A DNA stretch of 64,000 bases from assembly GCA_002167745.1 (NCBI GenBank), contig NHCB01000015.1:43726-107725 (forward strand), given 5' to 3'. Shown piece by piece: positions 49,153 to 51,607 of this stretch. Source of the DNA: Betaproteobacteria bacterium TMED22 (lineage in GTDB: Bacteria; Pseudomonadota; Gammaproteobacteria; Burkholderiales; Eutrophovitaceae). Positions within the stretch are counted from its first letter, which is position 1, and each line of letters opens with the position of its first letter. A program made the translations under genes and the position numbers. The notes under the pieces are model-generated. The model saw only the letters and a list, made by a program, of their open reading frames with translations. It did no database searches and had not been told where the DNA came from.

Positions 49153-50256
49153 ATGAAACTCCGAAAAGAATCAGAATATACCCACGGCTCTCTTGCACAC
49201 GTAGGTGTGCTACTGGTAAATCTCGGAACTCCAGAAGCACCCACTAAGCAATCCGTAAAAGAGTACCTCAGCGAATTTTTATGGGACCCGCGAGTCGTTG
49301 AAATTCCTAGGGCGATATGGTGGCTTATCCTAAACGGAATTATTTTGAGAATAAGACCAAAAGCCTCCGCAAAAAAATACGCCGTCATTTGGTCTGATGA
49401 AGGCTCACCGCTGAGGATCTACACTAAAAAACAGGCGGAATTACTGCAATCAAAGTTTGATCAGAAGTCGTACCCCAAGGTCATCGTGCGATCAGCAATG
49501 CGTTACGGTAAGCCTTCTGTCGATGACGGGCTTACCCAGCTGCGGGCTGAAGGATGCGACCAAATATTGGTTGCTCCGCTTTATCCTCAGTACAACTCAA
49601 GCACAACCGGCAGTATCTATGATGCAGTTTTCCATAGTCTTAAGACTGTTCGGAACCTTCCTGGGATACGATTAATAAAACATTTTCATGACCATAACGG
49701 CTATATCCAAGCCCTCTCACACAAGGTGAAAGATTACTGGGCGACTCACGGAAAGCCTGACAAGTTAATTCTCTCTTATCACGGTGTACCAAAATTCAGT
49801 CTTACCAAAGGCGACCCCTACCATTGTGAGTGTTATAAAACCAGTAGACTCCTGGCGGAACAATTGGATTTTAAGCCCGAAGATGTAATTACTACGTTTC
49901 AATCCCGTTTCGGCAGAGCTGAGTGGCTTAAGCCTTATACCATTGATGTCATGAAGGATCTGGGCGTCAAAAAATTAGGTAGGATGGATGTTTTTTGTCC
50001 TGGTTTCGTAGCAGATTGCTTAGAAACGCTTGAAGAAATCAATATGGAAAATCGAGAAGAGTTTTTAACTCACGGCGGAGGCGAATTCCACTACATTCCA
50101 TGTTTAAACGACAGTCCAATCTGGGTGCAAGGGCTACACCAAATCATTTCAGAACACCTAGGAGGATGGTTAGGTCAAGCGAAGTCTTCTGATGAAGCCG
50201 ATGCTGAGGCGACCACGAGCCGGACAGAAGCTCTGAAACTTGGAGCGACGAATTGA
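49153..50256 (+). CDS. hemH: Ferrochelatase
   Basis: This 367-residue enzyme inserts Fe2+ into protoporphyrin IX, the last step of heme synthesis. Features are VLLVNLGTPEAPT near the N-terminus, FLWDPRVVEIPR, the catalytic histidine in LSYHGVPKF, FQSRFGRAEWLKPYT, and the acidic metal path in FCPGFVADCLETLEEI. It follows hrcA by 36 bases on the same strand. The C-terminal 30 residues are polar and not conserved. Confidence 0.95.
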   Translation: MKLRKESEYTHGSLAHVGVLLVNLGTPEAPTKQSVKEYLSEFLWDPRVVEIPRAIWWLILNGIILRIRPKASAKKYAVIWSDEGSPLRIYTKKQAELLQSKFDQKSYPKVIVRSAMRYGKPSVDDGLTQLRAEGCDQILVAPLYPQYNSSTTGSIYDAVFHSLKTVRNLPGIRLIKHFHDHNGYIQALSHKVKDYWATHGKPDKLILSYHGVPKFSLTKGDPYHCECYKTSRLLAEQLDFKPEDVITTFQSRFGRAEWLKPYTIDVMKDLGVKKLGRMDVFCPGFVADCLETLEEINMENREEFLTHGGGEFHYIPCLNDSPIWVQGLHQIISEHLGGWLGQAKSSDEADAEATTSRTEALKLGATN

Positions 50257-50287: not shown

Positions 50288-50878
50288 TCACATCAAGCTA
50301 AGCCCCACACGACGTCCATAGTTCGTACTAGACTCGTAGTCAGCTTTTAGTGCTCGATACTTCTCTTTGAGATTTCTAACAATAGCGCTAACCATTGTTT
50401 CAAGCTCTTCACATGTTTTTTGAGGTGTCATGCCAAGTACAGCCTCCTCAACCTCAGACGCGGCCATCATAGCAAGATCTACCTGGTGCTTTTGAATTAC
50501 TTTTAACGCGCCCTCAAATGCTTCCCACCGGTCTATTAGCGTCTTGCTGGCTTCGCTCTTATCCCGCCATACGGGTTTCGTGTGCGTGATTCCAAGAGAT
50601 ACCTGCACAGAATCCACAACACACTGCGCATTTACCTCTTTTTGCTTAAATCGCCATTGCAAATCCCATTTGGTCTTAGCTGGGTGGCGTCTCCCGTCCT
50701 CACCAAAAGGGCCTTTAGAATCCATTTCGGCGCTTAAAATAAGCGAAGATTGGCCTAGGATACTGTATGAACTCGCCCCGATATGAACCAAGGGGGCTGA
50801 AAAAACTGAATTAACACTCCCATAAAACATTACAAAAATTACCGAGATTATTAGATTAAAACTCTGTCGTCGCCACAT
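50288..50878 (-). CDS. Secreted DUF922-like protein with degenerate metalloprotease motif
   Basis: This 196-residue protein begins with an export signal (about 1-28, cleavage near FSA). The mature part resembles DUF922, described as predicted secreted zinc proteases: Y-x-ILGQS, a T-K-WDLQWRF-x-x-x-x-x-x-AQC segment, WEAFEGAL, and a C-terminal DYESSTNYGRRVGLSL. Where the family has HExxH, this protein has HQVDL (residues 131-135), so the catalytic Glu and second His are missing. It is probably not an active protease of this kind. ATG 50878 has GGAGG five bases upstream. It converges on hemH and is divergent from grpE. Confidence 0.7.
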   Translation of the reverse strand: MWRRQSFNLIISVIFVMFYGSVNSVFSAPLVHIGASSYSILGQSSLILSAEMDSKGPFGEDGRRHPAKTKWDLQWRFKQKEVNAQCVVDSVQVSLGITHTKPVWRDKSEASKTLIDRWEAFEGALKVIQKHQVDLAMMAASEVEEAVLGMTPQKTCEELETMVSAIVRNLKEKYRALKADYESSTNYGRRVGLSLM

Positions 50879-50954
50879 AAGTCCTCCACTATTGCCTAAC
50901 CTCACAATAAACTAGGTTATCAGAATATAGCGTCAAATTTCCGTTTAAAACACC

Positions 50955-50982
50955 CTTGAAATTATAATTTTCACCCTCATTT
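50955..50982 (+). promoter_or_regulatory. Sigma-32 heat-shock promoter of grpE-dnaK-dnaJ
   Basis: CCCTTGAA (core CTTGAA at 50955-50960) is followed after 14 bases by CCTCATTTA (from 50975), against the RpoH consensus CTTGAA-N13-17-CCCCATNTA with one mismatch. It lies about 30 bases before the grpE start codon, so it is well placed as the chaperone operon's heat-shock promoter. Confidence 0.8.
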
Positions 50983-51013
50983 AAGCGACTTAGAGTTAAT
51001 GGAGTACTTTTTG

Positions 51014-51607
51014 ATGACTGAAAAAGAAACAGAACATAAAAACGAAGAGATCGAACCCTCAGAAACAAATACTCAATCAACGACCGAACCTGAATCTCCT
51101 CCCATCGGCACTGATGAGATAGAAGAATCTGAGACTACAGACGCACCAAAGAGCCTAGAAGAACAACTCGAGGAGGCAATTGCTGAATCTAACAAAAATA
51201 AGGACTCCTGGTTGCGGGCGACGGCAGAACTAGAAAATGTTCGCAAAAGATCTCAATTAGACGTGGCTAACGCCCACAAATACGCGCTAGAACGCTTTTC
51301 ATCCGAGCTTCTTGTTGTAAAGGACAGTCTTGAAGCTGCACTGAAAACCGAAAATGTGACTTTTGAAGCAATTAAAGATGGTGTCGATTTAACTTTAAAA
51401 CAATTGTCGAAAGTTTTTGAAACCTTCGGCATCAGCGAGATTGATCCACTTGGAGAGACGCTCGATCCGCATAAACATCAAGCGATGAGTGCGGTGGATT
51501 CAGATAAGTCGGCAAACACTATTCTAAGTGTTTTCCAAAAAGGATATCTACTTAACGACCGTCTAATCAGACCAGCGTTAGTCAGTGTGGCGAAAACGAA
51601 AGATTAA
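51014..51607 (+). CDS. grpE: Nucleotide exchange factor GrpE
   Basis: This 197-residue co-chaperone releases ADP from DnaK. An acidic, Ser/Thr-rich N-terminal region (about 1-50) precedes a long coiled coil ([31 protein letters not shown]) and the beta domain with [24 protein letters not shown] 51014 has GGAG nine bases upstream; an ATG five codons earlier overlaps that site. It heads grpE-dnaK-dnaJ behind a sigma-32 promoter. Confidence 0.95.

Follow-up and report, generated by a model that had tools for sequence, protein, structure and literature searches.

A putative clade-wide pseudo-protease form of DUF922 encoded between hemH and grpE

The gene and its locus

In the window, by which we mean the whole stretch of 64,000 nucleotides analysed here, a DUF922 gene lies on the minus strand between two genes that, from their translations, we take to be hemH and grpE (Table 1). 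Its start codon is the ATG at 50878, with GGAGG upstream on the same strand. The product is a true member of the DUF922 sequence family, as it matches the PF06037 profile over nearly its full length (positions 3-153 of 153, E 6e-31, 108 bits against a cut-off of 27); similarity to the family is plain, and the family call of a preliminary description of this DNA is thereby borne out. The signal peptide claimed in the same description also holds up, in that residues 1-28 look by eye like one, and the product is probably exported. An NCBIfam search with the window protein returned nothing significant. The window genome, which is 95% complete, has this one DUF922 match only. Patterns drawn from the window protein alone found no viral relatives, and one plasmid-borne DUF922, a distant one, was found on a Gloeothece plasmid.

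Table 1. Positions of the DUF922 gene, its neighbours and the residues discussed, in window coordinates
Feature	Position	Strand	Remarks
DUF922 (PF06037) gene, putative pseudo-protease	50288..50878	minus	196 aa; stop codon 50288-50290
Signal-peptide-like N-terminus, residues 1-28	50795..50878	minus	basic n-region, hydrophobic stretch, SVFSA/P; by eye
Cys86	50621..50623	minus	conserved with Cys156, putative disulfide; invariant in 15 diverse intact domains
Degenerate HExxH site, residues 128-132 (IQKHQ)	50483..50497	minus	codons ATT CAA AAG CAC CAG; inside predicted helix 112-148
Cys156	50411..50413	minus	conserved with Cys86, putative disulfide; invariant in 15 diverse intact domains
Glu182	50333..50335	minus	Asp position in 74/74 HExxH rows; candidate third zinc ligand of DUF922
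Tyr187 of TNYG	50318..50320	minus	His position of the TxHG subtype
hemH (ferrochelatase)	49153..50256	plus	convergent; conserved neighbour
grpE	50999..51607	plus	divergent; then dnaK, dnaJ; conserved neighbour
Sigma-32-like element, CTTGAAA ... CCCTCATTT	50955..50982	plus	upstream of grpE, in the stretch between it and the divergent DUF922 gene; pattern match and alignment

The place of the gene is fixed. In the window, as in all 13 further loci of the family that were compared (G005, on a short contig, was left out), hemH and grpE flank it on the other strand, and the same holds for 4/4 loci of the sister family. The 39 other DUF922 loci had none of the window's neighbours within the stretch fetched, mostly 1.5 kb per side; loci L098-L130, with 300 bases per side, were left out of this comparison. 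The gene is present in 15 of the 17 genomes of the family, including all eight with a completeness of 90% or more and a contamination of 5% or less, and no premature stop occurs in any of the 15 copies. Within the window's genus it is found in seven of the eight genomes at least 80% complete; in the remaining one (G004) hemH was likewise unmatched. The two genomes of the family without the gene (86% and 66% complete) were both unmatched for hemH as well, so that these two assemblies probably lack the locus; the hemH search did not include its own positive control.

The sigma-32-like element points towards grpE. Its CTTGAAA and CCCTCA parts are conserved in seven aligned genomes of the genus, and the full pattern occurs in 4/16 stretches. 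Upstream of the DUF922 start, at 50913-50931, there is a short TAGRTTATCAGAATA-like block, largely conserved in the same seven genomes, that is possibly the DUF922 promoter.

The structure model of the window protein has a mean pLDDT of 86.5 and is confident outside the signal peptide. It predicts a beta hairpin (residues 68-104), then the long helix 112-148 that holds the degenerate site, then a second long helix (156-184). The model of an intact homologue, L043, shows the same order of elements, with a mean pLDDT of 84.8 and low confidence at the C-terminal end. (The contig of L043, CAMDKM010000046.1, is titled Bordetella parapertussis and has the hemH-DUF922-grpE locus of the sister family, f23; its species name seems mistaken.) Foldseek gave no PDB match to the window model at E <= 0.001. 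The best VIA-align matches were not significant, neither for the window model (Z 4.6 with 3tbi_B, rmsd 3.1, 77 aligned) nor for the intact model (Z 6.2 with 4uos, rmsd 4.1, 145 aligned), and zincins were not among the fold matches listed, which excludes nothing. By sequence, one PDB search found no solved relative at E up to 1, and the further searches, with best E-values of 0.053 (a designed helical protein) and 0.91, found nothing significant.

The probable zinc site of DUF922 and its loss

DUF922 (PF06037) has been predicted to be a zincin family of Zn-dependent proteases, with HExxH in 100% of its members in the Trembl of 2010, and protease function was held to be most likely conserved in such HExxH families (Lenart et al. 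2013, PMC3650047, in the part drawn on here). In an alignment of 17 sequences that includes the window protein, the HExxH columns fall on residues 128-132, which read I-Q-K-H-Q, and no HExxH occurs anywhere in the 196 residues. The preliminary description was right that the motif had been lost and had misplaced it: the HQVDL at 131-135 that it took for the site is three residues out of register in the alignments and in the column counts, and Gln132 falls on the column of the second His by coincidence only, relative to that reading. At residue 128 the genus has Ile in 8/8 copies, against His in 70/71 rows outside the two near families; at residue 129 it has Gln in 8/8, where those rows have Glu in 68/71. 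That Ile128 and Gln129 are common to all eight copies is more than chance. At residue 132 the genus has His in 7/8 copies and Gln solely in the window species, where the outside rows have His in 70/71. Of the two residues that the preliminary description had proposed as a possible clade signature, therefore, Gln132 is private to the window species; Leu135 is indeed shared by 8/8 copies of the genus, at a position outside the motif.

Is Gln132 real? A mistake of assembly or base calling, confined to one genome, would account for a change seen in one copy of eight (CAG, against CAT or CAC in the others), and each species is represented in the sample by a single genome. Nothing else in the frame is damaged, however, and we regard an error as most improbable; the loss of His128 and Glu129 throughout the genus would stand regardless.

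The distribution of the site was taken from a census of 93 rows, made up of relatives and an order sample searched with a 16-row alignment, which favours near relatives, and of a phylum sample. Two of its rows, L131 and L132, are below the Pfam cut-off and have no alignable site. One intact row, L102 (HEKVH, then FDRVE), was left out of the DUF922 tree and of the column, co-loss and distal-Asp counts, and three matches of the phylum sample were left out: G621, a partial match above the cut-off, and G428 and G689, both below it. Outside the window's family, 72/75 rows (73/76 with L102) have the three H-E-H residues together with a distal Asp; since 37 of the 75 belong, by the tree, to the family f91, these rows are not independent. 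The three exceptions, L090 (HQIGH), L096 (YHQQI) and L130 (HAKGH), all from the phylum sample, look like separate losses of HExxH. As a side observation, two of these three (L090, 1501-1926; L096, 1501-1956; L130, 301-729; all on the minus strand) end in TRYG, with the Tyr found in the window's family. We also note that eight f91 genomes (G521, G452, G472, G567, G590, G592, G659 and G456) each have three or four matches to DUF922, some of them close together (G590:C42, G592:C30), all with HExxH and mostly with Glu at the position of the T of TxHG in the other subtype.

Nearer to the window, the sister family is intact in 4/4 genomes (G038, G084, G127 and G165), with HEDGH or HEDRH, the distal Asp and TxHG. 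Within the window's family the site varies by genus. Genus g3 keeps HExxH in both of its copies; g4 has NExxH twice, DExxH and NVxxH; the one copy of g2 has YHDFH; and in the window's genus, g1, seven copies read IQxxH and that of the window IQKHQ. All seven copies of the three other genera retain the second His. The loss of His128 and Glu129 thus belongs to the clade and is genus-wide, and that of the second His is confined to the window species.

How often was the site lost? In a tree of hrcA, hemH and grpE (16 rows), g2 is outermost (support 99/99), followed by g4 (98/98), and g3 stands beside g1 with moderate support (82/83). By that tree, and provided that residues once lost do not return, the family lost HExxH three times, after the His of TxHG had become Tyr; an alternative placement of g3 would lower the count. 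The DUF922 tree itself (90 rows, motif columns kept in) leaves the order of the family's genera unresolved. Over its 90 rows it requires four changes between intact and broken labels, of which the starred branches force two.

Besides HExxH, intact domains share a distal Asp, in YD or FD. It is present in all 74 rows that bear HExxH, is missing from 11 of the 16 that do not, and is near-universal outside the two near families (69/71). The position is Glu182 in the window, and 8/8 copies of the genus have Glu where intact domains have Asp. Nothing but C, P, H, E, H, C and D is invariant across a set of 15 diverse intact domains. It is therefore likely, from conservation, that the zinc site of DUF922 consists of HExxH and the distal Asp. 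The preliminary description had expected a further His in the later region. The region does read TNYG, as it said, but the His of TxHG marks a subfamily, being found in only 24/71 rows outside the near families. As a universal third ligand this His fails on that count and also because it is missing in five rows with an intact HExxH. Its position is occupied by Tyr or Phe in 15/15 copies of the window's family, including the two with an intact HExxH. Among the 47 rows that end in [T/S]xxG, 27 keep both the His and HExxH, 15 have lost both, five have lost the His only and none HExxH only; the 47 rows are related, and an independent-pairs test of the co-loss, with three starred pairs, is not significant.

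The scaffold around the site is kept. W71, W75, C86, P102, W118, C156, Y181, T185 and G188 are invariant in 16/16 alignment rows, and cysteines stand at 86 and at 156 in 69/71 rows each outside the two near families.

Selection and the probable role of the product

Across seven genomes of the genus the pN/pS of the DUF922 gene is 0.251, the highest of eight genes compared, close to grpE (0.247) and recN (0.222) and above the more constrained neighbours hemH (0.144), nadK (0.125), dnaJ (0.105), hrcA (0.062) and dnaK (0.058); these ratios are rough, because pS is near saturation (0.65-0.70). YN00 gives a median of 0.148, from the 9 usable pairs of 28. The gene is under purifying selection, at the level of grpE and recN. 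By region, over eight genomes, the signal peptide evolves fastest (0.65), against 0.23 for the mature protein, 0.33 for helix 112-148 and 0.26 for residues 125-135; for residues 120-145 the YN00 value is 0.46, from the 7 computable pairs of 28.

One might think that a protease that has lost its site, in bacteria with small genomes, is simply superfluous and that its gene is slowly being lost. The variation of the site from genus to genus (HExxH; NExxH or DExxH, NVxxH and YHDFH; IQxxH; IQKHQ) would suit such a decay, as would the weaker constraint on the site helix than on the rest of the protein. The complete absence of stops in the family, a pN/pS like that of grpE and the retention of the gene in nearly all of the better genomes of the genus speak against it, and we consider decay distinctly unlikely. 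An outright pseudogene was disfavoured on the same grounds, no stops in 15 copies and a pN/pS like grpE's. A decoy or regulator of an active DUF922 paralogue was also considered, and is disfavoured by the single DUF922 match in the genome.

What, then, might the product do? The preliminary description called it a pseudo-protease, and this is still the best reading, since 8/8 copies of the genus have lost residues that a zincin needs, namely the first His and the catalytic Glu. By zincin chemistry, a protein that has lost both of these should no longer hydrolyse, whatever the metal. Our proposal, to which we give a probability of about 0.55, is that the gene product is a non-catalytic, exported binding protein descended from a predicted zinc metalloprotease. 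The ancestor would have had the site of HExxH and distal Asp. In the genus its first zinc His would have been replaced by Ile, its catalytic Glu by Gln and its distal Asp by Glu, and in the window species the second His by Gln; with these residues replaced, neither catalytic zinc nor hydrolysis of peptide bonds is to be expected. The protein would be exported, probably to the periplasm, with its DUF922 fold presumably held by a Cys86-Cys156 disulfide. It may act in the envelope as an adaptor, a holder or a scaffold, its former substrate cleft still recognising a protein or peptide partner there. Non-catalytic binding seems the likeliest function because the scaffold, the cysteines and the fixed place of the gene are kept, under purifying selection like that on grpE and recN. 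The regional ratios count against the proposal in one respect: helix 112-148 is less constrained than the whole, and so gives no hint of a tightly kept binding cleft there. The stronger constraint on hemH, nadK, dnaJ, hrcA and dnaK also speaks against it, as does the lack of an active DUF922 paralogue for it to regulate.

It is conceivable instead that other residues of a remodelled site now bind a metal or heme, for sensing, storage or stability. The second His, kept in 7/8 copies of the genus and 7/7 of the other three genera, might allow residual metal binding, and the Glu that replaces the distal Asp in 8/8 copies of the genus is a possible metal ligand. His32, His65 and His99 are each present in 8/8 copies of the genus; of these, His32 and His99 occur in none of the seven other copies of the family and in none of the four of the sister family. 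In addition, hemH is a fixed neighbour. The window species, however, lacks the second His too, and hemH is convergent and so not co-transcribed with the DUF922 gene. Non-catalytic metal binding of this kind seems to us unlikely. A bolder form of it, in which the dead protease was rebuilt in the genus as a metal- or heme-binding envelope protein with His32, His65 and His99, and His132 where kept, we hold to be quite doubtful; if true, it would be a conversion from protease to binder caught stepwise at one fixed gene position. Could the protein still be an enzyme, with another active site or another reaction? The polar residues conserved specifically in the genus, such as His32, His99, Glu122 and Glu172, would fit such an enzyme. 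But the near-universal first His and catalytic Glu are changed in 8/8 copies, no fold match points to another reaction, and we find this very unlikely.

Relation to known proteins, and meaning

How does the window protein compare with what has been described? It agrees with the DUF922 of the zincin prediction in its domain match, its conserved cysteines, its scaffold residues and its signal-peptide-like start, but where HExxH was reported in 100% of that family (PMC3650047, in the part drawn on here), the window's genus has the His and the Glu replaced. The closest comparison is with the intact orthologue of the sister family, which shares both the place between hemH and grpE and the DUF922 domain. 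Its identity to the window protein is 33% (L002) and 30% (L043) in the two compared. The orthologue has its HEDGH or HEDRH, Asp and TxHG in 4/4 genomes, whereas the window protein lacks all three. Pseudo-ADAMs and FtsHi proteins, in which HExxH is replaced by, for example, QSIGH, QTLGQ or NEAAM, have been described as non-catalytic (PMC11266112, in the sections consulted); they resemble the window protein in the replacement of HExxH and belong to other peptidase families, and DUF922 is not named in those sections. In Brucella suis a DUF922 protein was more abundant in the vesicles of a mutant (PMC11788153, from the portion used here). Our literature search, with subscription papers mostly outside its scope and several sources represented in part, met neither an assay of a DUF922 member nor any reference to a pseudo-protease in that family. 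A paper on a putative endopeptidase of Clostridioides difficile (PMC11460543) may be about a bacterial pseudo-zincin.

The known part, then, is DUF922 as a predicted protease family, and what the conservation of residues adds to it is a predicted clade-wide pseudo-protease form. DUF922 proteins are annotated as Zn-dependent proteases, and for the window's clade that label would be wrong. At one fixed locus there is a natural series, from intact sites in the sister family and g3, through altered ones in g2 and g4, to the fully altered site of the window. Such a series suits the testing of how metalloprotease chemistry is lost while the fold is kept.
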